Below, piece after piece: positions 161-64,000 of a DNA stretch of 64,000 nt. The notes below the pieces were generated by a model. It ran no database searches, had not been told where the DNA came from, and worked only from the letters and a program-made list of their open reading frames with translations. A program made the position numbers and the translations under genes. Each line of letters starts with the position of its first letter. Within the stretch, counting starts at the first letter, position 1. Location of the stretch: positions 35,983,994-36,047,993 of the forward strand of contig OZ025264.1 of assembly GCA_964019135.1 (NCBI GenBank), written 5' to 3'. The DNA is from Arenicola marina. Taxonomy: Eukaryota > Annelida > Polychaeta > Arenicolidae.

Positions 161-2306
161 GTGAGATGTGAGAGGACAAGGCGGGTGTGAGAGGCGGTGT
201 GAGAGGACAAGGCGGGTGTGAGAGGACAAGGCGGGTGTGAGAGGACAAGGCGGGTGTGAGAGGACAAGGCGGGTGTGAGAGGACAATGCGGGTGTGAGAG
301 GACAAGGCGGGTGTGAGAGGACAAGGCGGGTGTGAGAGGACAAGGCGGGTGTGAGAGGACAATGCGGGTGTGAGAGGACAGGGCGGGTGTGAGAGGACAA
401 GGCGGGTGTGAGAGGACAAGGCGGGTGTGAGAGGACAATGCGGGTGTGAGAGGACAAGGCGGGTGTGAGAGGACAAGGCGGTGTGAGAGGACAAGGCGGG
501 TGTGAGAGGACAAGGCGGGTGTGAGAGGACAATGCGGGTGTGAGAGGACAAGGCGGGTGTGAGAGGACAAGGCGGGTGTGAGAGGACAAGGCGGGTGTGA
601 GAGGACAAGGCCCGTGTGAGAGGACAAGGCGGGTGTGAGAGGACAATGCGGGTGTGAGAGGACAAGGCGGGTGTGAGAGGACAAGGCGGGTGTGAGAGGA
701 CAAGGCGGGTGTGAGAGGACAATGCGGGTGTGAGAGAACAAGCGGGTGTGGGAGGACAAGGCGGGTGCGAGCGGACAAGGCGGGTGTGAGAAGACAAGGC
801 GGGTGTGAGAGGACAAGGCGGGTGCGAGAGGACAAGGCGGGTGTGAGAGGACAAGCCCGGTGTGAGCGGACAAGGCGGGTGTGAGAGGACAAGGCGGGTG
901 TGAGAGGACAAGGCGGGTGTGAGAGGACAAGGCGGGTGTGAGAGGACAAGGCGGGTGTGAGAGGACAAGGCGGGTGTGAGAGGACAATGCGGGTGTGAGA
1001 GGACAAGGCGGGTGTGAGAGGACAAGGCGGGTGTGAGAGGACAAGGCGGGTGTGAGAGGACAAGGCGGGTGTGAGAGGACAAGGTGGGTGTGAGAGGACA
1101 AGGCGGGTGGGAGAGGACAAGGCCGGTGTGAGAGGACAAGGCGGGTGTGAGAGGACAAGGCGGGTGTGACAGGACAATGCGGGTGTGAGAGGACAAGGCG
1201 GGTGTGAGAGGACAAGGCGGGTGTGAGAGGACAAGGCGGGTGTGAGAGGACAAGGCGGGTGTGAGAGGACAATGCGGGAGTGAGAGGACAAGGCGGGTGT
1301 GAGAGGACAAGCCCGGTGTGAGCGGACAAGGCGGGTGTGAGAGGACAAGTCGGGTGTGAGAGGACAAGGCGGGTGTGAGAGGACAAGGCGGGTGTGAGAG
1401 GACAAGGCGGGTGTGAGAGGACAATGCGGGTGTGAGAGGACAAGGCGGGTGTGAGAAGACAAGCCCGGTGTGAGCGGACAAAGCGGGTGTGAGAGGACAA
1501 TGCGGGTGTGAGAGGACAAGGCGGGTGTGAGAGGACAAGGCGGGTGTGAGAGGACAAGGCGGGTGTGAGAGGACAAGGCGGGTGTGAGAGGATAAGGCGG
1601 GTGTGAGAGGACAAGGCGGGTGTGAGAGGACAAGGCGGGTGTGAGAAGACAAGGCGGGTGTGAGCGGACAAGGTGGGTGTGAGAGGACAAGGCGGGTGTG
1701 AGAGGACAAGGCGAGTGTGAGAGGACAATGCGGGTGTGAGAGGACAAGGCGGGTGTGAGAGGACAAGGCGGGTGTGAGAGGACAAGGCGGGTGTGAGAGG
1801 ACAATGCGGGTGTGAGAGGACAAGGCGGGTGTGAGAGGACAAGCCCGGTGTGGGCGGACAAGGCGGGTGTGAGAGGACAAGGCCCGTGTGAGAGGACAAG
1901 GCGGGTGTGAGAGGACAAGGCGGGTGTGAGAGGACAAGGCGGGTGCGAGAGGACAAGGCGGGTGTGAGAGGACAAGGTGGGTGTGAGAGGACAAAGCCCG
2001 TGTGAGAGGACAAGGCGGGTGTGAGAGGACAAGGCGGGTGTGAGAGGACAAGGCGGGTGTGAGAGGACAAGGCGGGTGTGGGAGGACAAGGCGGGTGTGA
2101 GAGGACAAGCCGGGTGTGAGAGGACAAGGCGGGTGTGAGAGGACAAGGCGGGTGTGAGAGGACAATGCGGGTGTGAGAGGACAAGGCGGGTGTGAGAGGA
2201 CAAGCCCGGTGTGAGCGGGTAAGGCGGGTGTGAGAGGACAAGGCCCGTGTGAGAGGACAAGGCGGGTGTGAGAGGACAAGGCGGGTGTGAGAGGACAAGG
2301 CGGGGG
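161..2306. repeat. Left edge of the array, irregular monomeric zone
   Basis: These first 2.1 kb carry the same 19-bp unit but none of the landmark variants (catag, aaaaggaccagg, gatgacgagacgg) that order the rest of the array. A 12-bp shortened unit lies close to the boundary (about 186-197), and another short unit near 479. The last part, about 2081-2306, already resembles the end of the 627-bp module (gtgggagg, aagccggg, aatgcgg, then aagcccggtgtgagcgggtaagg), so it may be an older or parental form of it. An edge that escapes homogenisation is usual for tandem arrays. Confidence 0.7.
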
Positions 2307-2995
2307 TCAGAGGACAAGGCGGGTGTGAGAGGACAAGGCCCGTGTGAGAGGACAATGCGGGTGTGAGAGGACAAGGTGGGTGTGAGAGGACAAGGTAGGT
2401 GTGAGAGGACAAGGCGGGTGTGAGAGGCGGGCGTGAGAGGACATAGCGGGTGTGAGAGGACAAGGCGGGTGTGAGAGGTGGGTGTGAGAGGACAAGGCGG
2501 TGCGAGAGGACAAGGCGGGTGTGAGAGGACAAGGCCGGTGTGAGAGGACAAGGTGGGTGTGAGAAGACAAGGCGGGTGTGAGAGGACAAGGCGGGTGTGG
2601 GAGGACAAGGCGGGTGTGAGAGGACAAGGCGGGTGTGAGAGGACAAGGCCTGTGCGAGAGGACAAGGTGGGTGTGAGAGGACAAGGCGGGTGTGATAGAA
2701 CAAGGCGGGTGTGAGAGGACAAGGCGGGTGTGATAGGACAAGGCCGGTGTGAGAGGACAAGGTGGGTGCGAGAGGACAAGGCGGGTGTGAGAGGACAAGG
2801 CGGGTGTGATAGGACAAGGCGGGTGTGAGAGGACAAGGCGGGTGTGAGAGGACAAGGCGGGTGTGAGAGGACAAGGCGGGTGTGAGAGGACAAGGTGGGT
2901 GTGAGAGGACAAGGCGGGTGTGAGAGGACAAGGCGGGTGTGAGAGGACAAGGCGGGTGTGAGAGGCGGGTGTGAGAGGACAAGTCGGGTGTGAGA
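2307..2995. repeat. Type I higher-order block, copy 1 (partial)
   Basis: First block with the gggggtcag anchor (TCA at 2307) and the catag variant 135 bp later (2442). It matches the block at 7020 at an offset of 4,713 bp, changing to 4,694 near 2957, a difference of exactly one unit. It leaves the shared order soon after the aagtcgg variant near 2990 and lacks the aaaaggaccagg variant found in full copies. Confidence 0.75.
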
Positions 2996-5900
2996 GGACA
3001 AGGCGCGTGTGAGAGGACAAGGCGGGTGTGAGAGGACAAGGCGGGTGCGAGAGGACAAGGCGGGTGTGAGAGGACAAGGCGGGTGTGAGAGGACAAGGCG
3101 GGTGTGGGAGGACAAGGCGGGTGCGAGAGGACAAGGCGGGTGTGAGAGGACAAGGCGGGTGTGAGAGGACAAGGCGGGTGTGAGAGGACAATGCGGTGCG
3201 AGAGGACAAGGCGGGTGTGAGAGGACAAGTCGGGTGTGGGAGGACAAGGCGGGTGTGAGAGGACAAGGCGGGTGTGAGAGGACAAGGCCGGTGTGAGAGG
3301 ACAAGGTGGGTGTGAGAGGACAAGGCGGGTGTGAGAGGACAAGGCGGGTGTGGGAGGACAAGGCGGGTGTGAGAGGACAAGGCGGGTGTGAGAGGACAAG
3401 ACCGGTGCGAGCGGACAAGGTGGGTGTGAGAGGACAAGGCGGGTGTGAGAGGACAAGGCGGGTGTGGGAGGACAAGGCGGGTGTGAGAGGACAAGGCGGG
3501 TGTGAGAGGACAAGACCGGTGCGAGCGGACAAGGTGGGTGTGAGAGGACAAGGCGGGTGTGAGAGGACAAGGTGGGTGTGAGAGGACAAGGCGGGTGTGA
3601 GAGGACAAGGCGGGTGTGAGAGGACAAGGCGGGTGTGAGAGGACAAGGCGGGTGTGAGAGGACAATGCGGGTGTGAGAGGACAAGGCGGGTGTGAGAGGA
3701 CAAGCCCGGTGTGAGCGGACAAGGCGGGTGTGAGAGGACAAGGCGGGTGTGACAGGACAAGCCCGGTGTGAGCGGACAAGGCGGGTGTGAGAGGACAAGG
3801 CGGGTGTGAGAGGACAAGGCGGGTGTGAGAGGACAAGGCGGGTGTGAGAGGACAAGGGGCGTGTGAGAGGACAAGGCGGGTGTGAGAGGACAAGGCGGGT
3901 GTGAGAGGACAAGGCGGGAGTGAGAGGACAATGCGGGTGTGAGAGGACAAGGCGGGTGTGAGTGGACAAGGTGGGTGTGAGAGGACAAGGCGGGTGTGAG
4001 AGGACAAGGCTGGTGTGAGTGGACAAGGTGGGTGTGAGAGGACAAGGAGGCTGGTGTGAGAGGACAAGGCGGGTGTGAGAGGACAAGGCGGGTGTGAGAG
4101 GCGGGTGTGAGAGGACAAGGCGGGTGTGAGAGGACAAGGCGGGTGTGAGAGGACAAGGCGGGTGTGAGAGGACAAGGCGGGTGTGAGAGGACACGGCGGG
4201 TGTGAGAGGACAAGGCGGGTGTGAGAGGACAATGCGGGTGTGAGAGGACAAGGCGGGTGTGAGAGGACAAGGCGGGTGTGAGAGGACAAGGCCTGTGCGA
4301 GAGGACAAGGTGGGTGTGAGAGGACAAGGCGGGTGTGATAGAACAAGGCGGGTGTGAGAGGACAAGGCGGGTGTGAGAGGACAAGCCCGGTGTGAGCGGA
4401 CAAGGCGGGTGTGAGAGGACAAGGCCCGTGTGAGAGGACAAGGCCGGTGTGAGAGGACAAGGTGGATGTGAGAGGACAAGGCGGGTGTGAGAGCCGGGTG
4501 TGAGAGGACATAGCGTGTGTGAGAGGACAAGGCGGGTGTGAGAGGCGGGTGTGAGAGGACAAGGCGGTGCCAGAGGACAAGGCGGGTGTGAGAGGACAAG
4601 TCGGGTGTGAGAGGACAAGGCGGGTGTGAGAGGACAAGGCGGGTGTGAGAGGACAAGGCGGGTGCGAGAGGACAAGGCGGGTGTGAGAGGACAAGGCGGT
4701 TGTGAGAGGACAAGGCCGGTGTGAGAGGACAAGGTGGGTGTGAGAGGACAAGGCGGGTGTGAGAGGCGGGTGTGAGAGGACATAGTGGGTGTGAGAGGAC
4801 AAGGCGGGTGTGAGAGTCGGGTGTGAGAGGACAAGGCGGTGCGAGAGGACAAGGCGGGTGTGAGAGGAGAAGTCGGGTGTGAGAGGACAAGGCGGGTGTG
4901 AGAGGACAAGGCGGGTGTGAGAGGACAAGGCGGGTGCGAGAGGACAAGGCGGGTGTGAGAGGACAAGGCGGGTGTGAGAGGACAAGGCGGGTGTGGGAGG
5001 ACAAGGCGGGTGTGAGAGGACAAGGCGGGTGTGAGAGGACAAGGCCGGTGTGAGAGGACAAGGTGGGTGTGAGAAGACAAGGCGGGTGTGAGAGGACAAG
5101 GCGGGTGTGGGAGGACAAGGCGGGTGTGAGAGGACAAGGCGGGTGTGAGAGGACAAGACCGGTGCGAGCGGACAAGGTGGGTGTGAGAGGACAAGGCGGG
5201 TGTGAGAGGACAAGGCGGGTGTGAGAGGAAAAGGCGGGTGTGATAGGACAAGGCCGGCGTGAGAGGACAAGGCGGGTGTGTGAGGACAATGCGGGTGTGA
5301 GAGGACAAGGCGGGTGTGAGAGGACAAGGCGGGTGTGAGAGGACAAGGCGGGTGTGAGAGGACAAGCCCGGTGTGAGCGGACAAGGCGGGTGTGAGAGGA
5401 CAAGGCGGGTGTGAGAGGACAAGGTGGGTGTGAGAGGACAAGGCGGGTGTGAGAGGACAAGGCGGGTGTGAGAGGACAAGGCGGGTGTGAGAGGACAAGG
5501 CGGGTGTGAGAGGACAATGCGGGTGTGAGAGGACAAGGCGGGTGTGAGAGGACAAGCCCGGTGTGAGCGGTCAAGGCGGGCGTGAGAGGACAAGGCGGGT
5601 GTGAGAGGACAAGGCGGGTGTGAGAGGACAAGGCGGGTGTGAGAGGACAAGGCGGGTGTGAGAGGACAATGCGGGTGTGAGAGGACAAGGCGGGTGTGAG
5701 AGGACAAGCCCAGTGTGAGCGGACAAGGCGGGTGTGAGAGGACAAGGCGGGTGTGAGAGGACAAGGCGGGTGTGAGAGGACAAGGCCGGTGTAAGGGGAC
5801 AAGGCGGGTGTGGCAGGACAAGGCGGGTGTGAGAGGACAATGCGGGTGTGAGAGGACAAGGCGGGTGTGAGAGGACAAGGCGGGTGTGAGAGGACAAGGC

Positions 5901-16388: not shown

Positions 16389-19300
16389 CATAGCGGGTGT
16401 GAGAGGACAAGGCGGGTGTGAGAGGCGGGTGTGAGAGGACAAGGCGGTGCGAGAGGACAAGGCGGGTGTGAGAGGACAAGTCGGGTGTGAGAGGACAATG
16501 CGTGTGTGAGAGGACAAGGCGGGTGTGAGAGGACAAGGCCGGTGTGAGAGGACAAGGCGGGTGTGGGAGGACAAGGCGGGTGTGAGAGGACAAGGCGGGT
16601 GTGAGAGGACAAGGCGGGTGTGAGAGGACAAGGCGGGTGTGAGAGGACAAGGCGGGTGTGAGAGGACAAGGCGGGTGTGAGAGGACAAGGCCGGTGTAAG
16701 AGGACAAGGCGGGTGTGGCAGGACAAGGCGGGTGTGAGAGGACAATGCGGGTGTGAGAGGACACGGCGGGTGTGAGAGGACAAGGCGGGTGTGAGAGGAC
16801 AATGCGGGTGTGAGAGGACAAGGCGGGTGTGAGAGGACAATGCGGGTGTGAGAGGACAAGGCGGGTGTGAGAGGACAAGCCCGGTGTGAGCGGGTAAGGC
16901 GGGTGTGAGAGGACAAGGCCCGTGTGAGAGGACAAGCTGGGTGTGAGAGGACAAGGCGGGTGTGAGAGGACAAGGCGGGTGTGAGAGGACAATGCGGGTG
17001 TGAGAGGACATAGCGGGTGTGAGAGGACAAGGCGGGTGTGAGAGGCGGGTGTGAGAGGACAAGGCGGTGCGAGAGGACAAGGCGGGTGTGAGAGGACAAG
17101 TCGGGTGTGAGAGGACAATGCGTGTGTGAGAGGACAAGGCGGGTGTGAGAGGACAAGGCCGGTGTGAGAGGACAAGGCGGGTGTGGGAGGACAAGGCGGG
17201 TGTGAGAGGACAAGGCGGGTGTGAGAGGACAAGGCGGGTGTGAGAGGACAAGGCGGGTGTGAGAGGACAAGGCGGGTGTGAGAGGACAAGGCGGGTGTGA
17301 GAGGACAAGGCCGGTGTAAGAGGACAAGGCGGGTGTGGCAGGACAAGGCGGGTGTGAGAGGACAATGCGGGTGTGAGAGGACACGGCGGGTGTGAGAGGA
17401 CAAGGCGGGTGTGAGAGGACAATGCGGGTGTGAGAGGACACGGCGGGTGTGACAGGACAAGGCGGGTGTGAGAGGACAATGCGGGTGTGAGAGGACAAGG
17501 CGGGTGTGACAGGACAAGCCCGGTGTGAGCGGACAAGGCGGGTGTGAGAGGACAAGGCGGGTGTGAGAGGACAAGGCGGGTGTGAGAGGACAAGGGGCGT
17601 GTGAGAGGACAAGGCGGGTGTGAGAGGACAAGGCGGGTGTGAGCGGACAAGCTGGGTGTGAGAGGACAAGGCGGGTGTGAGAGGACAATGCGGGTGTGAG
17701 AGGACAAGGCGGGTGTGAGAGCACAAGGCGGGTGTGAGAGGACAAGGCGGGTGTGAGAGGACAATGCGGGTGTGAGAGGACAAGGCGGGTGTGAGAGGAC
17801 AAGCCCGGTGTGAGCGGGTAAGGCGGGTGTGAGAGGACAAGGCCCGTGTGAGAGGACAAGCTGGGTGTGAGAGGACAAGGCGGGTGTGAGAGGACAAGGC
17901 GGGTGTGAGAGGACAATGCGGGTGTGAGAGGACATAGCGGGTGTGAGAGGACAAGGCGGGTGTGAGAGGCGGGTGTGAGAGGACAAGGCGGTGCGAGAGG
18001 ACAAGGCGGGTGTGAGAGGACAAGGCGGGTGTGGGAGGACAAGGCGGGTGTGAGAGGACAAGGCGGGTGTGAGAGGACAAGGCGGGTGTGAGAGGACAAG
18101 GCGGGTGTGAGAGGACAAGGCGGGTGTGAGAGGACAAGGCGGGTGTGAGAGGACAAGGCCGGTGTAAGAGGACAAGGCGGGTGTGGCAGGACAAGGCGGG
18201 TGTGAGAGGACAATGCGGGTGTGAGAGGACACGGCGGGTGTGAGAGGACAAGGCGGGTGTGAGAGGACAATGCGGGTGTGAGAGGACAAGGCGGGTGTGA
18301 GAGGACAATGCGGGTGTGAGAGGACAAGGCGGGTGTGAGAGGACAAGCCCGGTGTGAGCGGGTAAGGCGGGTGTGAGAGGACAAGGCCCGTGTGAGAGGA
18401 CAAGCTGGGTGTGAGAGGACAAGGCGGGTGTGAGAGGACAAGGCGGGTGTGAGAGGACAATGCGGGTGTGAGAGGACATAGCGGGTGTGAGAGGACAAGG
18501 CGGGTGTGAGAGGCGGGTGTGAGAGGACAAGGCGGTGCGAGAGGACAAGGCGGGTGTGAGAGGACAAGTCGGGTGTGAGAGGACAATGCGTGTGTGAGAG
18601 GACAAGGCGGGTGTGAGAGGACAAGGCCGGTGTGAGAGGACAAGGCGGGTGTGGGAGGACAAGGCGGGTGTGAGAGGACAAGGCGGGTGTGAGAGGACAA
18701 GGCGGGTGTGAGAGGACAAGGCGGGTGTGAGAGGACAAGGCGGGTGTGAGAGGACAAGGCGGGTGTGAGAGGACAAGGCCGGTGTAAGAGGACAAGGCGG
18801 GTGTGGCAGGACAAGGCGGGTGTGAGAGGACAATGCGGGTGTGAGAGGACACGGCGGGTGTGAGAGGACAAGGCGGGTGTGAGAGGACAATGCGGGTGTG
18901 AGAGGACACGGCGGGTGTGACAGGACAAGGCGGGTGTGAGAGGACAATGCGGGTGTGAGAGGACAAGGCGGGTGTGACAGGACAAGCCCGGTGTGAGCGG
19001 ACAAGGCGGGTGTGAGAGGACAAGGCGGGTGTGAGAGGACAAGGCGGGTGTGAGAGGACAAGGGGCGTGTGAGAGGACAAGGCGGGTGTGAGAGGACAAG
19101 GCGGGTGTGAGCGGACAAGCTGGGTGTGAGAGGACAAGGCGGGTGTGAGAGGACAATGCGGGTGTGAGAGGACAAGGCGGGTGTGAGAGCACAAGGCGGG
19201 TGTGAGAGGACAAGGCGGGTGTGAGAGGACAATGCGGGTGTGAGAGGACAAGGCGGGTGTGAGAGGACAAGCCCGGTGTGAGCGGGTAAGGCGGGTGTGA

Positions 19301-19401
19301 GAGGACAAGGCCCGTGTGAGAGGACAAGCTGGGTGTGAGAGGACAAGGCGGGTGTGAGAGGACAAGGCGGGTGTGAGAGGACAATGCGGGTGTGAGAGGA
19401 C
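16389..19401. repeat. Ladder of type II higher-order units (924-bp register with internal deletions)
   Basis: Catag variants lie at 16389, 17009, 17933, 18477 and 19401, giving spacings of 620, 924, 544 and 924 bp. The short spacings equal 924 minus 304 (16 units) and minus 380 (20 units), so this is a local tandem series of one block with whole-unit deletions in alternate members. The same 924-bp spacing recurs at 26882-27806, 35446-36370 and 51291-52215. Confidence 0.8.
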
Positions 19402-19839
19402 ATAGCGGGTGTGAGAGGACAAGGCGGGTGTGAGAGGCGGGTGTGAGAGGACAAGGCGGTGCGAGAGGACAAGGCGGGTGTGAGAGGACAAGTCGGGTGT
19501 GAGAGGACAATGCGTGTGTGAGAGGACAAGGCGGGTGAGAGAGGACAAGGCCGGTGTGAGAGGACAAGGCGGGTGTGGGAGGACAAGGCGGGTGTGAGAG
19601 GACAAGGCGGGTGTGAGAGGACAAGGCGGGTGTGAGAGGACAAGGCGGGTGTGAGAGGACAAGGCGGGTGTGAGAGGACAAGGCGGGTGTGACAGGACAA
19701 GCCCGGTGTGAGCGGACAAGGCGGGTGTGAGAGGACAAGGCGGGTGTGAGAGGACAAGGCGGGTGTGAGAGGACAAGGCGCGTGTGAGAGGACAAGGCGG
19801 GTGTGAGAGGACAAGGCGGGTGCGAGAGGACAAGGCGGG

Positions 19840-29960: not shown

Positions 29961-30063
29961 GCCCGGTGTGAGCGGGTAAGGCGGGTGTGAGAGGACAAGG
30001 CCCGTGTGAGAGGATAAGGCGGGTGTGAGAGGACAAGGCGGGTGTGAGAGGACAAGGCGGGGG
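29437..30063. repeat. 627-bp module, copy 1
   Basis: Thirty-three full-length 19-bp units between two gggggtcag anchors, with no shortened unit. Inside it, a pattern of gtgggagg, aagccggg, aatgcgg and aagcccggtgtgagcgggtaagg occurs twice, 266 bp (14 units) apart, and gataagg marks three places. The antisense reading of the four complete modules is the same over 199 codons, so they are at least nearly identical in base sequence. Confidence 0.85.
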
Positions 30064-46249: not shown

Positions 46250-47667
46250 TCAGAGGACAAGGCGGGTGTGAGAGGACAAGGCCCGTGTGAGAGGACAATG
46301 CGGGTGTGAGAGGACAAGGTGGGTGTGAGAGGACAAGGTAGGTGTGAGAGGACAAGGCGGGTGTGAGAGGCGGGCGTGAGAGGACATAGCGGGTGTGAGA
46401 GGACAAGGCGGGTGTGAGAGGTGGGTGTGAGAGGACAAGGCGGTGCGAGAGGACAAGGCGGGTGTGAGAGGACAAGGCCGGTGTGAGAGGACAAGGTGGG
46501 TGTGAGAAGACAAGGCGGGTGTGAGAGGACAAGGCGGGTGTGGGAGGACAAGGCGGGTGTGAGAGGACAAGGCGGGTGTGAGAGGACAAGGCCTGTGCGA
46601 GAGGACAAGGTGGGTGTGAGAGGACAAGGCGGGTGTGATAGAACAAGGCGGGTGTGAGAGGACAAGGCGGGTGTGATAGGACAAGGCCGGTGTGAGAGGA
46701 CAAGGTGGGTGCGAGAGGACAAGGCGGGTGTGAGAGGACAAGGCGGGTGTGATAGGACAAGGCGGGTGTGAGAGGACAAGGCGGGTGTGAGAGGACAAGG
46801 CGGGTGTGAGAGGACAAGGCGGGTGTGAGAGGACAAGGTGGGTGTGAGAGGACAAGGCGGGTGTGAGAGGACAAGGCGGGTGTGAGAGGCGGGTGTGAGA
46901 GGACAAGTCGGGTGTGAGAGGACAAGGCGGGTGTGAGAGGACAAGGCGGGTGTGAGAGGACAATGCGGGTGTGAGAGGACAAGGCGGGTGTAAAAGGACC
47001 AGGCGGGTGTGAGAAGACAATGCGGGTATGAGAGGACAAGGCGGGTGTGAGAGGACAAGGCGGGTGTGACAGGACAAGGCGGGTGTGAGAGGTCGGTGTG
47101 AGAGGACAAGGCGGGTGTGAGATGACGAGACGGTGCGAGAGGACAAGGCGGGTGTGACAGGACAAGGCGGGTGTGAGAGGACAAGGCGGGTGTGAGAGGA
47201 CAAGGCCGGTGTGAGAGGACAAGGCGGGTGTGGGAGGACAAGGCGGGTGTGAGAGGACAATGCGGGTGTGAGAGGACAAGGCGGGTGTGAGAGGACAAGG
47301 CGGGTGTGAGAGGACAAGGCGGGTGTGAGAGGACACGGCGGGTGTGAGAGGACAAGGCGGGTGTGAGAGGACAAGGCGGGTGTGAGAGGACAAGGCGGGT
47401 GTGACAGGACAAGCCCGGTGTGAGCGGACAAGGCGGGTGTGAGAGGACAAGGCGGGTGTGAGAGGACAAGGCGGGTGTGAGAGGACAAGGCGCGTGTGAG
47501 AGGACAAGGCGGGTGTGAGAGGACAAGGCGGGTGCGAGAGGACAAGGCGGGTGTGAGAGGACAAGCCCGGTGTGAGCGGGTAAGGCGGGTGTGAGAGGAC
47601 AAGGCCCGTGTGAGAGGACAAGGCGGGTGTGAGAGGACAAGGCGGGTGTGAGAGGACAAGGCGGGGG
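46250..47667. repeat. Type I higher-order block, reference full copy (1,418 bp)
   Basis: A complete block lying between two anchors. It holds 76 units: 70 of 19 bp, four of 13 bp and two of 18 bp, which accounts exactly for 1,418 bp. Landmarks from the anchor are ggtggg then ggtagg, catag (+135), gcctgtgcg, gatagaac (+387), aaaaggaccagg (+741), gatgacgagacgg, cacgg, gacagg, gcgcgtg (+1,240), gtgcgag and gcccgtg. I use it as the type copy because both ends are anchors. Confidence 0.85.
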
Positions 47668-49066
47668 TCAGAGGACAAGGCGGGTGTGAGAGGACAAGGC
47701 CCGTGTGAGAGGACAATGCGGGTGGGAGAGGACAAGGTGGGTGTGAGAGGACAAGGTAGGTGTGAGAGGACAAGGCGGGTGTGAGAGGCGGGCGTGAGAG
47801 GACATAGCGGGTGTGAGAGGACAAGGCGGGTGTGAGAGGTGGGTGTGAGAGGACAAGGCGGTGCGAGAGGACAAGGCGGGTGTGAGAGGACAAGGCCGGT
47901 GTGAGAGGACAAGGTGGGTGTGAGAAGACAAGGCGGGTGTGAGAGGACAAGGCGGGTGTGGGAGGACAAGGCGGGTGTGATAGAACAAGGCGGGTGTGAG
48001 AGGACAAGGCGGGTGTGATAGGACAAGGCCGGTGTGAGAGGACAAGGTGGGTGCGAGAGGACAAGGCGGGTGTGATAGAACAAGGCGGGTGTGAGAGGAC
48101 AAGGCGGGTGTGATAGGACAAGGCCGGTGTGAGAGGACAAGGTGGGTGCGAGAGGACAAGGCGGGTGTGAGAGGACAAGGCGGGTGTGATAGGACAAGGC
48201 GGGTGTGAGAGGACAAGGCGGGTGTGAGAGGACAAGGCGGGTGTGAGAGGACAAGGCGGGTGTGAGAGGACAAGGTGGGTGTGAGAGGACAAGGCGGGTG
48301 TGAGAGGACAAGGCGGGTGTGAGAGGCGGGTGTGAGAGGACAAGTCGGGTGTGAGAGGACAAGGCGGGTGTGAGAGGACAAGGCGGGTGTGAGAGGACAA
48401 TGCGGGTGTGAGAGGACAAGGCGGGTGTAAAAGGACCAGGCGGGTGTGAGAAGACAATGCGGGTATGAGAGGACAAGGCGGGTGTGAGAGGACAAGGCGG
48501 GTGTGACAGGACAAGGCGGGTGTGAGAGGTCGGTGTGAGAGGACAAGGCGGGTGTGAGATGACGAGACGGTGCGAGAGGACAAGGCGGGTGTGACAGGAC
48601 AAGGCGGGTGTGAGAGGACAAGGCGGGTGTGAGAGGACAAGGCCGGTGTGAGAGGACAAGGCGGGTGTGGGAGGACAAGGCGGGTGTGAGAGGACAATGC
48701 GGGTGTGAGAGGACAAGGCGGGTGTGAGAGGACAAGGCGGGTGTGAGAGGACAAGGCGGGTGTGAGAGGACACGGCGGGTGTGAGAGGACAAGGCGGGTG
48801 TGAGAGGACAAGGCGGGTGTGAGAGGACAAGGCGGGTGTGACAGGACAAGCCCGGTGTGAGCGGACAAGGCGGGTGTGAGAGGACAAGGCGGGTGTGAGA
48901 GGACAAGGCGGGTGTGAGAGGACAAGGCCGGTGTGAGAGGACAAGGTGGGTGTGAGAGGACAAGGCGGGTGTGAGAGGACAAGGCGGGTGTGGGAGGACA
49001 AGGCGGGTGTGAGAGGACAAGGCGGGTGTGAGAGGACAAGACCGGTGCGAGCGGACAAGGTGGGTG
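47668..49066. repeat. Type I higher-order block, variant copy
   Basis: Anchor at 47,668, catag at 47,803, aaaaggaccagg at 48,428 (+760, one unit more than usual). A stretch near 47,960-48,075 repeats gatagaac, gatagg, gccgg and gtgcgag in place of the gcctgtgcg units. The right part ends with aagaccggtgcgagcgg and a gtgtcagagg unit (TCA at 49,067) instead of a normal anchor. A private gtgggagagg change lies near 47,724. Confidence 0.8.
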
Positions 49067-50347
49067 TCAGAGGACAAGGCGGGTGTGAGAGGACAAGGCG
49101 GGTGTGAGAGGAAAAAGCGGGTGTGATAGGACAAGGCCGGCGTGAGAGGACAAGGCGGGTGTGTGAGGACAATGCGGGTGTGAGAGGACAAGGCGGGTGT
49201 GAGAGGACAAGGCGGGTGTGAGAGGACAAGGCGGGTGTGAGAGGACAAGCCCGGTGTGAGCGGACAAGGCGGGTGTGAGAGGACAAGGCGGGTGTGAGAG
49301 GACAAGGTGGGTGTGAGAGGACAAGGCGGGTGTGAGAGGACAAGGCGGGTGTGAGAGGACAAGGCGGGTGTGAGAGGACAAGGCGGGTGTGAGAGGACAA
49401 TGCGGGTGTGAGAGGACAAGGCGGGTGTGAGAGGACAAGCCCGGTGTGAGCGGACAAGGCGGGCGTGAGAGGACAAGGCGGGTGTGAGAGGACAAGGCGG
49501 GTGTGAGAGGACAAGGCGGGTGTGAGAGGACAAGGCGGGTGTGAGAGGACAATGCGGGTGTGAGAGGACAAGGCGGGTGTGAGAGGACAAGCCCAGTGTG
49601 AGCGGACAAGGCGGGTGTGAGAGGACAAGGCGGGTGTGAGAGGACAAGGCGGGTGTGAGAGGACAAGGCCGGTGTAAGAGGACAAGGCGGGTGTGGCAGG
49701 ACAAGGCGGGTGTGAGAGGACAATGCGGGTGTGAGAGGACAAGGCGGGTGTGAGAGGACAAGGCGGGTGTGAGAGGACAAGGCGGGTGTGAGAGGACACG
49801 GCGGGTGTGAGAGGACAAGGCGGGTGTGAGAGGACAATGCGGGTGTGAGAGGACACGGCGGGTGTGACAGGACAAGGCGGGTGTGAGAGGACAATGCGGG
49901 TGTGAGAGGACAAGGCGGGTGTGACAGGACAAGCCCGGTGTGAGCGGACAAGGCGGGTGTGAGAGGACAAGGCGGGTGTGAGAGGACAAGGCGGGTGTGA
50001 GAGGACAAGGGGCGTGTGAGAGGACAAGGCGGGTGTGAGAGGACAAGGCGGGTGTGAGCGGACAAGCTGGGTGTGAGAGGACAAGGCGGGTGTGAGAGGA
50101 CAATGCGGGTGTGAGAGGACAAGGCGGGTGTGAGAGCACAAGGCGGGTGTGAGAGGACAAGGCGGGTGTGAGAGGACAATGCGGGTGTGAGAGGACAAGG
50201 CGGGTGTGAGAGGACAAGCCCGGTGTGAGCGGGTAAGGCGGGTGTGAGAGGACAAGGCCCGTGTGAGAGGACAAGCTGGGTGTGAGAGGACAAGGCGGGT
50301 GTGAGAGGACAAGGCGGGTGTGAGAGGACAATGCGGGTGTGAGAGGA

Positions 50348-53300
50348 CATAGCGGGTGTGAGAGGACAAGGCGGGTGTGAGAGGCGGGTGTGAGAGGACA
50401 AGGCGGTGCGAGAGGACAAGGCGGGTGTGAGAGGACAAGTCGGGTGTGAGAGGACAATGCGTGTGTGAGAGGACAAGGCGGGTGTGAGAGGACAAGGCCG
50501 GTGTGAGAGGACAAGGCGGGTGTGGGAGGACAAGGCGGGTGTGAGAGGACAAGGCGGGTGTGAGAGGACAAGGCGGGTGTGAGAGGACAAGGCGGGTGTG
50601 AGAGGACAAGGCCGGTGTAAGAGGACAAGGCGGGTGTGGCAGGACAAGGCGGGTGTGAGAGGACAATGCGGGTGTGAGAGGACAAGGCGGGTGTGAGAGG
50701 ACAAGGCGGGTGTGAGAGGACAAGGCGGGTGTGAGAGGACACGGCGGGTGTGAGAGGACAAGGCGGGTGTGAGAGGACAATGCGGGTGTGAGAGGACACG
50801 GCGGGTGTGACAGGACAAGGCGGGTGTGAGAGGACAATGCGGGTGTGAGAGGACAAGGCGGGTGTGACAGGACAAGCCCGGTGTGAGCGGACAAGGCGGG
50901 TGTGAGAGGACAAGGCGGGTGTGAGAGGACAAGGCGGGTGTGAGAGGACAAGGGGCGTGTGAGAGGACAAGGCGGGTGTGAGAGGACAAGGCGGGTGTGA
51001 GCGGACAAGCTGGGTGTGAGAGGACAAGGCGGGTGTGAGAGGACAATGCGGGTGTGAGAGGACAAGGCGGGTGTGAGAGCACAAGGCGGGTGTGAGAGGA
51101 CAAGGCGGGTGTGAGAGGACAATGCGGGTGTGAGAGGACAAGGCGGGTGTGAGAGGACAAGCCCGGTGTGAGCGGGTAAGGCGGGTGTGAGAGGACAAGG
51201 CCCGTGTGAGAGGACAAGCTGGGTGTGAGAGGACAAGGCGGGTGTGAGAGGACAAGGCGGGTGTGAGAGGACAATGCGGGTGTGAGAGGACATAGCGGGT
51301 GTGAGAGGACAAGGCGGGTGTGAGAGGCGGGTGTGAGAGGACAAGGCGGTGCGAGAGGACAAGGCGGGTGTGAGAGGACAAGTCGGGTGTGAGAGGACAA
51401 TGCGTGTGTGAGAGGACAAGGCGGGTGTGAGAGGACAAGGCCGGTGTGAGAGGACAAGGCGGGTGTGGGAGGACAAGGCGGGTGTGAGAGGACAAGGCGG
51501 GTGTGAGAGGACAAGGCGGGTGTGAGAGGACAAGGCGGGTGTGAGAGGACAAGGCGGGTGTGAGAGGACAAGGCGGGTGTGAGAGGACAAGGCCGGTGTA
51601 AGAGGACAAGGCGGGTGTGGCAGGACAAGGCGGGTGTGAGAGGACAATGCGGGTGTGAGAGGACAAGGCGGGTGTGAGAGGACAAGGCGGGTGTGAGAGG
51701 ACAAGGCGGGTGTGAGAGGACACGGCGGGTGTGAGAGGACAAGGCGGGTGTGAGAGGACAATGCGGGTGTGAGAGGACAAGGCGGGTGTGACAGGACAAG
51801 CCCGGTGTGAGCGGACAAGGCGGGTGTGAGAGGACAAGGCGGGTGTGAGAGGACAAGGCGGGTGTGAGAGGACAAGGGGCGTGTGAGAGGACAAGGCGGG
51901 TGTGAGAGGACAAGGCGGGTGTGAGCGGACAAGCTGGGTGTGAGAGGACAAGGCGGGTGTGAGAGGACAATGCGGGTGTGAGAGGACAAGGCGGGTGTGA
52001 GAGCACAAGGCGGGTGTGAGAGGACAAGGCGGGTGTGAGAGGACAATGCGGGTGTGAGAGGACAAGTCGGGTGTGAGAGGACAAGCCCGGTGTGAGCGGG
52101 TAAGGCGGGTGTGAGAGGACAAGGCCCGTGTGAGAGGACAAGCTGGGTGTGAGAGGACAAGGCGGGTGTGAGAGGACAAGGCGGGTGTGAGAGGACAATG
52201 CGGGTGTGAGAGGACATAGCGGGTGTGAGAGGACAAGGCGGGTGTGAGAGGCGGGTGTGAGAGGACAAGGCGGTGCGAGAGGACAAGGCGGGTGTGAGAG
52301 GACAAGTCGGGTGTGAGAGGACAATGCGTGTGTGAGAGGACAAGGCGGGTGTGAGAGGACAAGGCCGGTGTGAGAGGACAAGGCGGGTGTGGGAGGACAA
52401 GGCGGGTGTGAGAGGACAATGCGGGTGTGAGAGGACAAGGCGGGTGTGAGAGGACAAGGCGGGTGTGAGAGGACAAGGCGGGTGTGAGAGGACACGGCGG
52501 GTGTGAGAGGACAAGGCGGGTGTGAGAGGACAAGGCGGGTGTGAGAGGACAAGGCGGGTGTGACAGGACAAGCCCGGTGTGAGCGGACAAGGCGGGTGTG
52601 AGAGGACAAGGCGGGTGTGAGAGGACAAGGCGGGTGTGAGAGGACAAGGCGCGTGTGAGAGGACAAGGCGGGTGTGAGAGGACAAGGCGGGTGCGAGAGG
52701 ACAAGGCGGGTGTGAGAGGACAAGGCGGGTGTGAGAGGACAAGGCGGGTGTGAGAGGACAAGGCGGGTGTGAGAGGACAAGGCGGGTGTGAGAGGACAAG
52801 GCCGGTGTGAGAGGACAAGGCGGGTGTGAGAGGACAATGCGGGTGTGAGAGGACAATGCGGGTGTGAGAGGACAAGCCCGGTGTGAGCGGGTAAGGCGGG
52901 TGTGAGAGGACAAGGCCCGTGTGAGAGGATAAGGCGGGTGTGAGAGGACAAGGCGGGTGTGAGAGGACAATGCGGGTGTGAGAGGACAAGGCGGGTGTGA
53001 CAGGACAAGCCCGGTGTGAGCGGACAAGGCGGGTGTGAGAGGACAAGGCGGGTGTGAGAGGACAAGGTAGGTGTGAGAGGACAAGGGGCGTGTGAGAGGA
53101 CAAGGCGGGTGTGAGAGGACAAGGCGGGTGTGAGCGGACAAGCTGGGTGTGAGAGGACAAGGCGGGTGTGAGAGGACAATGCGGGTGTGAGAGGACAAGG
53201 CGGGTGTGAGAGGACAAGGCGGGTGTGAGAGGACAAGGCGGGTGTGAGAGGACAATGCGGGTGTGAGAGGACAAGGCGGGTGTGAGAGGACAAGCCCGGT

Positions 53301-53424
53301 GTGAGCGGGTAAGGCGGGTGTGAGAGGACAAGGCCCGTGTGAGAGGACAAGCTGGGTGTGAGAGGACAAGGCGGGTGTGAGAGGACAAGGCGGGTGTGAG
53401 AGGACAATGCGGGTGTGAGAGGAC
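50348..53424. repeat. Type II higher-order units with 943, 924 and 1,209-bp spacing
   Basis: Catag variants at 50348, 51291, 52215 and 53424. In the related region near the right end they lie at 60660, 61565 and 62774, spacings 905 and 1,209. One 943-bp unit is thus missing from the second region, while the 905-bp unit equals the 943-bp unit less two 19-bp units. Confidence 0.75.
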
Positions 53425-54035
53425 ATAGCGGGTGTGAGAGGACAAGGCGGGTGTGAGAGGCGGGTGTGAGAGGACAAGGCGGTGCGAGAGGACAAGGCGG
53501 GTGTGGGAGGACAAGTCGGGTGTGAGAGGACAATGCGTGTGTGAGAGGACAAGGCGGGTGTGAGAGGACAAGGCCGGTGTGAGAGGACAAGGCGGGTGTG
53601 GGAGGACAAGGCGGGTGTGAGAGGACAATGCGGGTGTGACAGGACAAGGCGGGTGTGAGAGGACAAGGCGGGTGTGAGAGGACAAGGCGGGTGTGAGAGG
53701 ACACGGCGGGTGTGAGAGGACAAGGCGGGTGTGAGAGGACAAGGCGGGTGTGAGAGGACAAGGCGGGTGTGACAGGACAAGCCCGGTGTGAGCGGACAAG
53801 GCGGGTGTGAGAGGACAAGGCGGGTGTGAGAGGACAAGGCGGGTGTGAGAGGACAAGGCGCGTGTGAGAGGACAAGGCGGGTGTGAGAGGACAAGGCGGG
53901 TGCGAGAGGACAAGGCGGGTGTGAGAGGACAAGCCCGGTGTGAGCGGGTAAGGCGGGTGTGAGAGGACAAGGCCCGTGTGAGAGGACAAGGCGGGTGTGA
54001 GAGGACAAGGCGGGTGTGAGAGGACAAGGCGGGGG

Positions 54036-54662
54036 TCAGAGGACAAGGCGGGTGTGAGAGGACAAGGCCCGTGTGAGAGGATAAGGCGGGTGTGAGAGGA
54101 CAAGGCGGGTGTGAGAGGACAAGGCGGGTGTGAGAGGACAAGGCGGGTGTGAGAGGACAAGGCGGGTGTGGGAGGACAAGGCGGGTGTGAGAGGACAAGC
54201 CGGGTGTGAGAGGACAAGGCGGGTGTGAGAGGACAAGGCGGGTGTGAGAGGACAATGCGGGTGTGAGAGGACAAGGCGGGTGTGAGAGGACAAGCCCGGT
54301 GTGAGCGGGTAAGGCGGGTGTGAGAGGACAAGGCCCGTGTGAGAGGATAAGGCGGGTGTGAGAGGACAAGGCGGGTGCGAGAGGACAAGGCGGGTGTGAG
54401 AGGACAAGGCGGGTGTGAGAGGACAAGGCGGGTGTGGGAGGACAAGGCGGGTGTGAGAGGACAAGCCGGGTGTGAGAGGACAAGGCGGGTGTGAGAGGAC
54501 AAGGCGGGTGTGAGAGGACAATGCGGGTGTGAGAGGACAAGGCGGGTGTGAGAGGACAAGCCCGGTGTGAGCGGGTAAGGCGGGTGTGAGAGGACAAGGC
54601 CCGTGTGAGAGGATAAGGCGGGTGTGAGAGGACAAGGCGGGTGTGAGAGGACAAGGCGGGGG
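54036..54662. repeat. 627-bp module, copy 4
   Basis: Complete module between anchors at 54,036 and 54,663, the counterpart of copy 3 in the 8-kb duplication. Confidence 0.85.
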
Positions 54663-55071
54663 TCAGAGGACAAGGCGGGTGTGAGAGGACAAGGCCCGTG
54701 TGAGAGGACAATGCGGGTGTGAGAGGACAAGGTAGGTGTGAGAGGACAAGGTAGGTGTGAGAGGACAAGGCGGGTGTGAGAGGCGGGCGTGAGAGGACAT
54801 AGCGGGTGTGAGAGGACAAGGCGGGTGTGAGAGGTGGGTGTGAGAGGACAAGGCGGTGCGAGAGGACAAGGCGGGTGTGAGAGGACAAGGCCGGTGTGAG
54901 AGGACAAGGTGGGTGTGAGAAGACAAGGCGGGTGTGAGAGGACAAGGCGGGTGTGGGAGGACAAGGCGGGTGTGAGAGGACAAGGCGGGTGTGAGAGGAC
55001 AAGGCCTGTGCGAGAGGACAAGGTGGGTGTGAGAGGACAAGGCGGGTGTGATAGAACAAGGCGGGTGTGAG
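54663..55071. repeat. Type I block, A-prime subtype, short form (follows 627-bp module 4)
   Basis: Catag at 54,798. It leaves the block at the same place as the 44,332 copy (gacagg unit at about 55,142 against 44,811, offset 10,331). Confidence 0.75.
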
Positions 55072-56580
55072 AGGACAAGGCGGGTGTGAGAGGACAAGGC
55101 GGGTGTGAGAGGACAAGGCGGGTGTGAGAGGACAAGGCGGGTGTGACAGGACAAGCCCGGTGTGAGCGGACAAGGCGGGTGTGAGAGGACAAGGCGGGTG
55201 TGAGAGGACAAGGCGGGTGTGAGAGGACAAGGCGGGTGTGAGAGGACAAGGCGCGTGTGAGAGGACAAGGCGGGTGTGAGAGGACAAGGCGGGTGTGAGA
55301 GGACAAGGCGGGTGTGAGAGGACAAGGCGGGTGTGAGAGGACAAGGCCGGTGTGAGAGGACAAGGCGGGTGTGAGAGGACAATGCGGGTGTGAGAGGACA
55401 ATGCGGGTGTGAGAGGACAAGCCCGGTGTGAGCGGGTAAGGCGGGTGTGAGAGGACAAGGCCCGTGTGAGAGGATAAGGCGGGTGTGAGAGGACAAGGCG
55501 GGTGTGAGAGGACAATGCGGGTGTGAGAGGACAAGGCGGGTGTGACAGGACAAGCCCGGTGTGAGCGGACAAGGCGGGTGTGAGAGGACAAGGCGGGTGT
55601 GAGAGGACAAGGTAGGTGTGAGAGGACAAGGGGCGTGTGAGAGGACAAGGCGGGTGTGAGAGGACAAGGCGGGTGTGAGCGGACAAGCTGGGTGTGAGAG
55701 GACAAGGCGGGTGTGAGAGGACAATGCGGGTGTGAGAGGACAAGGCGGGTGTGAGAGGACAAGGCGGGTGTGAGAGGACAAGGCGGGTGTGAGAGGACAA
55801 TGCGGGTGTGAGAGGACAAGGCGGGTGTGAGAGGACAAGCCCGGTGTGAGCGGGTAAGGCGGGTGTGAGAGGACAAGGCCCGTGTGAGAGGACAAGCTGG
55901 GTGTGAGAGGACAAGGCGGGTGTGAGAGGACAAGGCGGGTGTGAGAGGACAATGCGGGTGTGAGAGGACATAGCGGGTGTGAGAGGACAAGGCGGGTGTG
56001 AGAGGCGGGTGTGAGAGGACAAGGCGGTGCGAGAGGACAAGGCGGGTGTGGGAGGACAAGTCGGGTGTGAGAGGACAATGCGTGTGTGAGAGGACAAGGC
56101 GGGTGTGAGAGGACAAGGCCGGTGTGAGAGGACAAGGCGGGTGTGGGAGGACAAGGCGGGTGTGAGAGGACAATGCGGGTGTGAGAGGACAAGGCGGGTG
56201 TGAGAGGACAAGGCGGGTGTGAGAGGACAAGGCGGGTGTGAGAGGACACGGCGGGTGTGAGAGGACAAGGCGGGTGTGAGAGGACAAGGCGGGTGTGAGA
56301 GGACAAGGCGGGTGTGACAGGACAAGCCCGGTGTGAGCGGACAAGGCGGGTGTGAGAGGACAAGGCGGGTGTGAGAGGACAAGGCGGGTGTGAGAGGACA
56401 AGGCGCGTGTGAGAGGACAAGGCGGGTGTGAGAGGACAAGGCGGGTGCGAGAGGACAAGGCGGGTGTGAGAGGACAAGCCCGGTGTGAGCGGGTAAGGCG
56501 GGTGTGAGAGGACAAGGCCCGTGTGAGAGGACAAGGCGGGTGTGAGAGGACAAGGCGGGTGTGAGAGGACAAGGCGGGGG

Positions 56581-57998
56581 TCAGAGGACAAGGCGGGTGT
56601 GAGAGGACAAGGCCCGTGTGAGAGGACAATGCGGGTGTGAGAGGACAAGGTGGGTGTGAGAGGACAAGGTAGGTGTGAGAGGACAAGGCGGGTGTGAGAG
56701 GCGGGCGTGAGAGGACATAGCGGGTGTGAGAGGACAAGGCGGGTGTGAGAGGTGGGTGTGAGAGGACAAGGCGGTGCGAGAGGACAAGGCGGGTGTGAGA
56801 GGACAAGGCCGGTGTGAGAGGACAAGGTGGGTGTGAGAAGACAAGGCGGGTGTGAGAGGACAAGGCGGGTGTGGGAGGACAAGGCGGGTGTGAGAGGACA
56901 AGGCGGGTGTGAGAGGACAAGGCCTGTGCGAGAGGACAAGGTGGGTGTGAGAGGACAAGGCGGGTGTGATAGAACAAGGCGGGTGTGAGAGGACAAGGCG
57001 GGTGTGATAGGACAAGGCCGGTGTGAGAGGACAAGGTGGGTGCGAGAGGACAAGGCGGGTGTGAGAGGACAAGGCGGGTGTGATAGGACAAGGCGGGTGT
57101 GAGAGGACAAGGCGGGTGTGAGAGGACAAGGCGGGTGTGAGAGGACAAGGCGGGTGTGAGAGGACAAGGTGGGTGTGAGAGGACAAGGCGGGTGTGAGAG
57201 GACAAGGCGGGTGTGAGAGGCGGGTGTGAGACGACAAGTCGGGTGTGAGAGGACAAGGCGGGTGTGAGAGGACAAGGCGGGTGTGAGAGGACAATGCGGG
57301 TGTGAGAGGACAAGGCGGGTGTAAAAGGACCAGGCGGGTGTGAGAAGACAATGCGGGTATGAGAGGACAAGGCGGGTGTGAGAGGACAAGGCGGGTGTGA
57401 CAGGACAAGGCGGGTGTGAGAGGTCGGTGTGAGAGGACAAGGCGGGTGTGAGATGACGAGACGGTGCGAGAGGACAAGGCGGGTGTGACAGGACAAGGCG
57501 GGTGTGAGAGGACAAGGCGGGTGTGAGAGGACAAGGCCGGTGTGAGAGGACAAGGCGGGTGTGGGAGGACAAGGCGGGTGTGAGAGGACAAGGCGGGTGT
57601 GAGAGGACAAGGCGGGTGTGAGAGGACAAGGCGGGTGTGAGAGGACAAGGCGGGTGTGAGAGGACACGGCGGGTGTGAGAGGACAAGGCGGGTGTGAGAG
57701 GACAAGGCGGGTGTGAGAGGACAAGGCGGGTGTGACAGGACAAGCCCGGTGTGAGCGGACAAGGCGGGTGTGAGAGGACAAGGCGGGTGTGAGAGGACAA
57801 GGCGGGTGTGAGAGGACAAGGCGCGTGTGAGAGGACAAGGCGGGTGTGAGAGGACAAGGCGGGTGCGAGAGGACAAGGCGGGTGTGAGAGGACAAGCCCG
57901 GTGTGAGCGGGTAAGGCGGGTGTGAGAGGACAAGGCCCGTGTGAGAGGACAAGGCGGGTGTGAGAGGACAAGGCGGGTGTGAGAGGACAAGGCGGGGG
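56581..57998. repeat. Type I higher-order block, full copy (1,418 bp)
   Basis: Same length and landmark positions as 46,250-47,667 (catag 56,716; aaaaggaccagg 57,322). Private differences seen are gagacgac near 57,230 and aaggcgg where the other copy has aatgcgg at about 57,592. Confidence 0.85.
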
Positions 57999-59378
57999 TC
58001 AGAGGACAAGGCGGGTGTGAGAGGACAAGGCCCGTGTGAGAGGACAATGCGGGTGTGAGAGGACAAGGTGGGTGTGAGAGGACAAGGTAGGTGTGAGAGG
58101 ACAAGGCGGGTGTGAGAGGCGGGCGTGAGAGGACATAGCGGGTGTGAGAGGACAAGGCGGGTGTGAGAGGTGGGTGTGAGAGGACAAGGCGGTGCGAGAG
58201 GACAAGGCGGGTGTGAGAGGACAAGGCCGGTGTGAGAGGACAAGGTGGGTGTGAGAAGACAAGGCGGGTGTGAGAGGACAAGGCGGGTGTGGGAGGACAA
58301 GGCGGGTGTGAGAGGACAAGGCGGGTGTGAGAGGACAAGGCCTGTGCGAGAGGACAAGGTGGGTGTGAGAGGACAAGGCGGGTGTGATAGAACAAGGCGG
58401 GTGTGAGAGGACAAGGCGGGTGTGATAGGACAAGGCCGGTGTGAGAGGACAAGGTGGGTGCGAGAGGACAAGGCGGGTGTGAGAGGACAAGGCGGGTGTG
58501 ATAGGACAAGGCGGGTGTGAGAGGACAAGGCGGGTGTGAGAGGACAAGGCGGGTGTGAGAGGACAAGGCGGGTGTGAGAGGACAAGGTGGGTGTGAGAGG
58601 ACAAGGCGGGTGTGAGAGGACAAGGCGGGTGTGAGAGGCGGGTGTGAGAGGACAAGTCGGGTGTGAGAGGACAAGGCGGGTGTGAGAGGACAAGGCGGGT
58701 GTGAGAGGACAATGCGGGTGTGAGAGGACAAGGCGGGTGTAAAAGGACCAGGCGGGTGTGAGAAGACAATGCGGGTATGAGAGGACAAGGCGGGTGTGAG
58801 AGGACAAGGCGGGTGTGACAGGACAAGGCGGGTGTGAGAGGTCGGTGTGAGAGGACAAGGCGGGTGTGAGATGACGAGACGGTGCGAGAGGACAAGGCGG
58901 GTGTGACAGGACAAGGCGGGTGTGAGAGGACAAGGCGGGTGTGAGAGGACAAGGCCGGTGTGAGAGGACAAGGCGGGTGTGGGAGGACAAGGCGGGTGTG
59001 AGAGGACAATGCGGGTGTGAGAGGACAAGGCGGGTGTGAGAGGACAAGGCGGGTGTGAGAGGACAAGGCGGGTGTGAGAGGACACGGCGGGTGTGAGAGG
59101 ACAAGGCGGGTGTGAGAGGACAAGGCGGGTGTGAGAGGACAAGGCGGGTGTGACAGGACAAGCCCGGTGTGAGCGGACAAGGCGGGTGTGAGAGGACAAG
59201 GCGGGTGTGAGAGGACAAGGCGGGTGTGAGAGGACAAGGCCGGTGTGAGAGGACAAGGTGGGTGTGAGAGGACAAGGCGGGTGTGAGAGGACAAGGCGGG
59301 TGTGGGAGGACAAGGCGGGTGTGAGAGGACAAGGCGGGTGTGAGAGGACAAGACCGGTGCGAGCGGACAAGGTGGGTG
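57999..59378. repeat. Type I higher-order block, variant copy
   Basis: Anchor at 57,999, catag at 58,134, aaaaggaccagg at 58,740 (+741). It ends in the gtgtcagagg unit (TCA at 59,379) like the 47,668 copy, but keeps the ordinary gcctgtgcg stretch. It is therefore one unit shorter and probably the less rearranged of the two. Confidence 0.8.
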
Positions 59379-62300: not shown

Positions 62301-64000
62301 AGGCGGGTGTGAGAGGACAATGCGGGTGTGAGAGGACAAGGCGGGTGTGACAGGACAAGCCCGGTGTGAGCGGACAAGGCGGGTGTGAGAGGACAAGGCG
62401 GGTGTGAGAGGACAAGGTAGGTGTGAGAGGACAAGGGGCGTGTGAGAGGACAAGGCGGGTGTGAGAGGACAAGGCGGGTGTGAGCGGACAAGCTGGGTGT
62501 GAGAGGACAAGGCGGGTGTGAGAGGACAATGCGGGTGTGAGAGGACAAGGCGGGTGTGAGAGGACAAGGCGGGTGTGAGAGGACAAGGCGGGTGTGAGAG
62601 GACAATGCGGGTGTGAGAGGACAAGGCGGGTGTGAGAGGACAAGCCCGGTGTGAGCGGGTAAGGCGGGTGTGAGAGGACAAGGCCCGTGTGAGAGGACAA
62701 GCTGGGTGTGAGAGGACAAGGCGGGTGTGAGAGGACAAGGCGGGTGTGAGAGGACAATGCGGGTGTGAGAGGACATAGCGGGTGTGAGAGGACAAGGCGG
62801 GTGTGAGAGGCGGGTGTGAGAGGACAAGGCGGTGCGAGAGGACAAGGCGGGTGTGGGAGGACAAGGCGGGTGTGAGAGGACAAGGCGGGTGTGAGAGGAC
62901 AAGGCGGGTGTGAGAGGACAAGGCGGGTGTGAGAGGACAAGGCGGGTGTGAGAGGACAAGGCCGGTGTGAGAGGACAAGGCGGGTGTGAGAGGACAATGC
63001 GGGTGTGAGAGGACAATGCGGGTGTGAGAGGACAAGCCCGGTGTGAGCGGGTAAGGCGGGTGTGAGAGGACAAGGCCCGTGTGAGAGGATAAGGCGGGTG
63101 TGAGAGGACAAGGCGGGTGTGAGAGGACAATGCGGGTGTGAGAGGACAAGGCGGGTGTGACAGGACAAGCCCGGTGTGAGCGGACAAGGCGGGTGTGAGA
63201 GGACAAGGCGGGTGTGAGAGGACAAGGTAGGTGTGAGAGGACAAGGGGCGTGTGAGAGGACAAGGCGGGTGTGAGAGGACAAGGCGGGTGTGAGCGGACA
63301 AGCTGGGTGTGAGAGGACAAGGCGGGTGTGAGAGGACAATGCGGGTGTGAGAGGACAAGGCGGGTGTGAGAGGACAAGGCGGGTGTGAGAGGACAAGGCG
63401 GGTGTGAGAGGACAATGCGGGTGTGAGAGGACAAGGCGGGTGTGAGAGGACAAGCCCGGTGTGAGCGGGTAAGGCGGGTGTGAGAGGACAAGGCCCGTGT
63501 GAGAGGACAAGCTGGGTGTGAGAGGACAAGGCGGGTGTGAGAGGACAAGGCGGGTGTGAGAGGACAATGCGGGTGTGAGAGGACATAGCGGGTGTGAGAG
63601 GACAAGGCGGGTGTGAGAGGCGGGTGTGAGAGGACAAGGCGGTGCGAGAGGACAAGGCGGGTGTGGGAGGACAAGTCGGGTGTGAGAGGACAATGCGTGT
63701 GTGAGCGGACAAGCTGGGTGTGAGAGGACAAGGCGGGTGTGAGAGGACAATGCGGGTGTGAGAGGACAAGGCGGGTGTGAGAGGACAAGGCGGGTGTGAG
63801 AGGACAAGGCGGGTGTGAGAGGACAATGCGGGTGTGAGAGGACAAGGCGGGTGTGAGAGGACAAGCCCGGTGTGAGCGGGTAAGGCGGGTGTGAGAGGAC
63901 AAGGCCCGTGTGAGAGGACAAGCTGGGTGTGAGAGGACAAGGCGGGTGTGAGAGGACAAGGCGGGTGTGAGAGGACAATGCGGGTGTGAGAGGACATAGC
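59379..64000. repeat. Right part of the array in the window, type II material
   Basis: Tandem units in type II order with catag at 60660, 61565, 62774, 63584 and 63995. The last spacings (810 and about 411 bp) are shorter than the usual 924-1,209, so blocks are again truncated here: one cut lies near 62,870, where the expected aagtcgg and aatgcgtg units are missing, and another near 63,700, where aatgcgtg is followed directly by gagcggacaagctggg. The array runs off the window in mid-block. Confidence 0.75.

Follow-up and report, generated by a model that had tools for sequence, protein, structure and literature searches.

Extent and unit structure of the array

This locus raises the question of whether a 19-bp tandem repeat that fills almost all of a long stretch of annelid DNA is a true satellite, serving a structural function in the chromosome, or a minisatellite of large scale. 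The window, i.e. the whole stretch of DNA analysed (64,000 bp; C19:35983994-36047993), is taken from an assembly of 867 Mb in 762 contigs. The array within it is, with good confidence, a very large locus-specific minisatellite (VNTR) that has grown by tandem duplication of kilobase-sized blocks and gives no indication of having its own function.

The array (unit TGTGAGAGGACAAGGCGGG) runs unbroken and in one orientation from position 167 to the end of the window, and was returned by TRF as a single row (167-63996; period 19, 3,391.6 copies, 89% matches), the other 79 TRF rows being short 10-13 bp sub-matches within the array, listed as period 13. It overruns the window by 25,565 bp, to C19:36073558, giving a full length of 89,399 bp. 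Cutting the whole array by wraparound alignment yielded 4,756 units, every piece being 12-22 bp long apart from the last, a stub of 5 bp. As no piece exceeds 22 bp, the whole array contains no unrelated insertion or spacer, and no N is found inside it. The original prediction of an uninterrupted 19-bp array of more than 63.8 kb, free of transposons and spacers, is thus upheld. That prediction also had the array filling the window after base 160; it does continue to the window end, but its true start is at 167 and it carries on past the window.

Most units (4,496) are 19 bp long and the remainder are of 13 bp (139), 18 bp (105) or other lengths (16, including the terminal stub). As read from the units, the 13-bp form is the canonical unit minus 6 bp between two AGG triplets. 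The 4,756 units fall into 155 unit types, 64 of which occur once. Both head-to-tail units of ~10-100 bp and interspersed variant units are features by which a minisatellite or VNTR is recognised, and both are present here. Composition is flat across the window (GC 0.61-0.63), with a GC skew of ~+0.6 and an AT skew of ~+0.37.

Block duplications and growth of the array

Layered higher-order repetition had been noticed in the window, and it is extensive across the whole array. At run lengths of 10, 20, 40 and 80 units, recurring runs of the same unit types take in 90, 84, 73 and 41% of units, respectively, compared with 0% after a single shuffle for each length, and an LZ parse of the array gave 553 phrases vs 2,205-2,223 in five shuffles. 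Exact copying extends over 5,246 bp (lag 8,564 bp) and 4,931 bp (lag 10,590 bp) in the two longest cases, with a further copy of 2,328 bp.

A total of 68 near-identical block pairs was found, of which six, with a block length ≥0.8 times the lag, are tandem in shape (lags 2,755, 2,026, 1,703, 1,468, 1,418 and 1,221 bp) and 62 are not. Perfect tandem block duplications are seen at 16541-19476 (lag 1,468 bp, exact match 1,484 bp) and 36485-40536 (lag 2,026 bp, exact over 2,041 bp), the latter overlapping the second copy of a 302-unit block that starts at 24264 and again at 32828 (24264-38511; lag 8,564 bp, 99.7% of units identical, 5,246 bp mismatch-free). A 290-unit block starting at 42532 is found again at 52863 (42532-58306; lag 10,331 bp, 98.6% of units identical). 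Further tandem block duplications lie at 56180-59015 (lag 1,418 bp, 97.7% of units identical) and at 62478-64000 (lag 1,221 bp, exact over 1,228 bp), where the second copy runs beyond the window; all are on the plus strand. The 8.6-kb and 10.3-kb pairs fall short of their lags (ratios of 0.66 and 0.53), and presumably began as tandem duplications that were later broken by further changes. The lags take many irregular values (1,221 to >10,000 bp) rather than following the regular higher-order period expected of a satellite.

The same long copies bear on the possibility that the array is real but shorter, with near-identical blocks stacked or mis-joined during assembly. Many kilobase-long exact copies, up to 5,246 bp mismatch-free, are difficult to assemble, only 166 bp separate the array's left end from a run of 200 N, and the length of 89 kb is that of the assembly. 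However, the array contains no N, its two ends meet different non-array sequences, and many block pairs carry scattered unit differences and have irregular lags, unlike one piece plainly repeated. Some smaller nearby arrays also carry long repeated runs. An assembly artefact of this kind therefore appears unlikely.

Duplication of single units, by comparison, contributed little to the array. Identical variant units lie side by side 21 times, vs 56.4 ± 7.5 in shuffled arrays (0/500 shuffles lower), and after removal of repeated runs the de-duplicated part (975 units) has two such adjacencies vs 7.9 ± 2.7 (4/500 shuffles as low), with the proviso that these shuffle controls ignore the common ancestry of the blocks. 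Adjacent identity of any type in the de-duplicated part is as expected (180 vs 179). Eight flanking arrays gave a mixed picture: adjacent identical non-modal units number 0 vs 5.1, 3.2 and 3.7 expected in three and 6 vs 9.8 in one, while the other four have 2 vs 1.2, 2 vs 1.1, 7 vs 6.5 and 2 vs 1.3. The large array is thus clearly depleted of single-unit duplications, with suggestive depletion in only some of its neighbours. Long repeated runs (23-46 units) were identified in the neighbouring 44-bp, 31-bp, 30-bp and 25-bp arrays and are absent from the others.

Rare unit types (three or fewer occurrences) reach about five times their interior frequency in the outermost 400 units on each side (49/800 vs 49/3,956; Fisher p = 2e-14, a value made optimistic by block copies, which render units non-independent). 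Such an excess is expected if exchange homogenises the interior, but it is uneven, as units 3,600-4,200 also hold 21/600.

These patterns are consistent with growth of the minisatellite in two stages. A 19-bp word on one chromosome would first have multiplied into a short array, which would then have expanded mainly as blocks of tens or hundreds of units were duplicated in tandem. Such blocks are of 1.2-2.8 kb where they are clearest, and the largest are of ~8.6 and 10.3 kb. They would have arisen through unequal exchange, involving either sister chromatids or homologues, or through repair synthesis in which a stretch is copied again. The array probably differs in length between individuals and is probably selectively neutral, as judged from one assembly and one haplotype. 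With 89 kb of readable variant units, in which the order of variants shows block duplication, it provides a good record of how a tandem array grows.

Genomic distribution of the repeat

A genome search with a 32-mer based on the unit, allowing up to three mismatches (more diverged copies would escape), gave 4,260 forward and no reverse matches, in agreement with the single orientation and lack of inversions previously noted from the window. The joined 174-kb stretch around the locus also has 4,260 matches, all within the array and 3,063 of them in the window. As genome and local counts are equal, the unit is confined to one locus at the sensitivity used, as is typical of a minisatellite or VNTR. 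A classical satellite would occupy centromeres, chromosome ends or heterochromatin on several chromosomes, and the idea that the unit might be found at other loci received no support at this threshold, with all matches accounted for by the one locus on C19.

A first, looser search had identified ten further places matching the unit at 66-75% identity, which might indicate a dispersed family. Six were examined, and five of these lie inside other arrays with different unit lengths (21-60 bp) that have short stretches in common with the TGTGAGAGGACAAGGCGGG unit, on which basis a dispersed family was rejected; the sixth (L024) is outside the listed arrays. In a genome so rich in arrays, these looser overlaps may be due to chance. 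Arrays with 23-35 bp units on C19 (L020, 34.45 Mb), C3 (L021) and C14 (L022) contain pieces near the 19-bp unit, e.g. GGCGGGTGTGAGAG in L021, which may reflect chance or a common G-rich core.

Sequences flanking the array

Positions 1-166 of the window consist of non-array sequence whose sole match in the genome is its own copy. The 200 N immediately to the left of window base 1 most likely mark a scaffold gap, on the far side of which lies a 31-bp array, so that the left context of the array is certain over 166 bp only. The original prediction that the array meets unique DNA abruptly at the left end is thus correct in that these 166 bp match nowhere else, but the abruptness is partly due to the nearby N run. 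At the right edge, the array directly adjoins unrelated non-array sequence.

Tandem repeats make up 68% of the left flank (40 kb) and 74% of the right flank (34 kb). They are unrelated to the 19-bp array, with units of 6-116 bp and individual lengths of up to 9.3 kb, and form a row on both sides of the window on C19, mostly with 17-51 bp units. Two of these neighbours were checked for matches elsewhere and each is private to this region (left 31-bp array, 153/153 genome matches local; right 30-bp array, 276/276). The 174-kb stretch contains 64 stop-to-stop frames of at least 70 aa outside arrays, and a Pfam search of ten of the longer non-overlapping ones gave one match, a reverse transcriptase fragment (RVT_1; E 1.1e-25) in the left flank (C19:35956907-35957665, minus strand), the other nine having none. 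This fragment is probably a retroelement remnant between two arrays. An Rfam search of eight flank loci gave nothing at gathering score.

Twelve samples from C19 place these flanks in a wider context. Tandem repeats account for 100% of the sample at 35.0 Mb, 62% of that at 36.6 Mb and 98% of that at 37.4 Mb, for 0-50% of the seven sites between 3 and 33 Mb, and for 43 and 18% of the outermost 1.5-kb pieces of the scaffold. Among the TRF matches listed, a TTAGGG array is present at the start of C2 but in neither of the terminal 1.5-kb pieces of C19, whose true chromosome ends may therefore be missing from the assembly. The 19-bp array ends 2.1 Mb inside the end of the 38.19-Mb C19 scaffold.

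The original prediction favoured a true satellite (centromeric, knob-like or subtelomeric), which would here be a structural element confined to C19. The size and homogeneity of the array and its higher-order blocks would suit such an element, as would the high repeat content (62-100%) of all three sites sampled nearest to it. Against this, the genome search, at its sensitivity, placed the unit at a single locus, and unrelated arrays and a reverse transcriptase fragment lie beside the array, which is one member of a row of unrelated minisatellites. The distance of 2.1 Mb to the scaffold end also argues against a subtelomeric position, yet carries less weight if the true ends of C19 are unassembled. 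A structural satellite is accordingly very improbable, and the locus is better described as a giant minisatellite.

Coding potential and strand asymmetry

All three minus-strand frames of the array are open for thousands of codons and would encode a cyclic repeat of 19 residues, raising the possibility of a coding repeat. The window has 22 stop-to-stop frames that reach 300 aa or more, all on the minus strand, the longest (58-22233) comprising 7,391 codons and owing its openness to composition: the canonical unit lacks minus-strand stops in every frame, from which the open frames follow. Selection against stops and frameshifts, as expected of an exon encoding a repeat protein, is not apparent. 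Stop-making single substitutions of the unit are found as often as others (3/4 vs 33/53, p = 1), and the 105 units of 18 bp introduce frameshifts. A coding repeat was rejected on these grounds and has almost no probability left.

The strong strand asymmetry (see skews above) might instead point to a functional non-coding array, such as a recombination hot spot or an R-loop region dependent on a purine-/G-rich strand. No sign of selection was found among stop-making changes, the class considered, and the eight flanking arrays range in skew from -0.43 to +0.83. When four ideal units were folded, neither strand folded better than its shuffles, a result that also led to rejection of hairpin-driven expansion. 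A non-coding function is therefore highly improbable, and a minisatellite with no sign of its own function remains the best description of the array.

Comparison with known tandem repeats

Classical satellites, e.g. alpha satellite, form long homogeneous arrays with higher-order copies and rarer variants at their edges, and the 19-bp array resembles them in all of these respects. It differs from them in being at one locus, with a short unit and irregular block lengths, and lacks the two defining satellite features tested, namely occurrence at multiple chromosomal sites and a fixed higher-order period.

Closer parallels are found among human single-locus VNTRs, as described by Warburton et al. 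2008 (PMC2588610). There, single-locus VNTR arrays of at least 10 kb have units from 20 bp, and several have higher-order repeats; a 61-bp pseudoautosomal VNTR, for instance, has irregular repeats of 1.6 and 2.5 kb, and unequal crossing over is invoked for megasatellites. Human VNTRs of this type and the annelid array have in common a single locus and irregular higher-order copies. Classical human VNTRs extend to ~50 kb and a 125-bp array, DYZ19, to as much as 246 kb according to the same text (PMC2588610), whereas the annelid array, at 89.4 kb, exceeds the classical VNTRs, has a slightly shorter (19-bp) unit and lies among many other arrays. No such array was encountered in the literature on large annelid minisatellites, as represented by titles and the openings of abstracts. 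The array thus appears ordinary in kind and large in scale, and the repeat-rich genome around it may be of more interest.

Tandem repeats in the genome at large

Eighteen random 2-kb samples from six scaffolds (L043-L060; 36 kb in total) contain a mean of 26% repeats with 10-99 bp units (TRF 2 7 7; bootstrap 12-44%, median 8%) and 29% tandem repeats of all kinds (14-47%, median 14%), both being means of a small sample dominated by a few windows (4/18 at ≥60%). This 36 kb of random sequence suggests that the genome as a whole may be rich in minisatellites. In the earthworm Amynthas aspergillum, also an annelid and analysed with the same TRF settings, the corresponding class (10-99 bp units) is given as 2.65% (PMC12130307), a figure for the whole genome set here against a mean of 18 samples.

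If about one quarter of the genome is truly made up of private minisatellites, this would be ~ten times the earthworm share. Tentatively, a process acting throughout the genome might keep making and enlarging such single-locus arrays, by block duplication in place of single-unit slippage, with the 89-kb array at the large end of their range. This proposal is less likely to be right than wrong. If the high share is real, the genome would offer a natural system in which to study how features of replication or repair allow tandem arrays to form and enlarge.

In the mitochondrial contig, cox1 was located by Pfam profile and read with the invertebrate mitochondrial code, and ARAGORN (bacterial code) identified no tRNA in the mitochondrial piece. 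With genes and anticodons assigned by eye, the contig reads trnK-nad3-trnS1-nad2-cox1-trnN-cox2-trnD-atp8-trnY-trnG-cox3, which we take to be the common annelid order.
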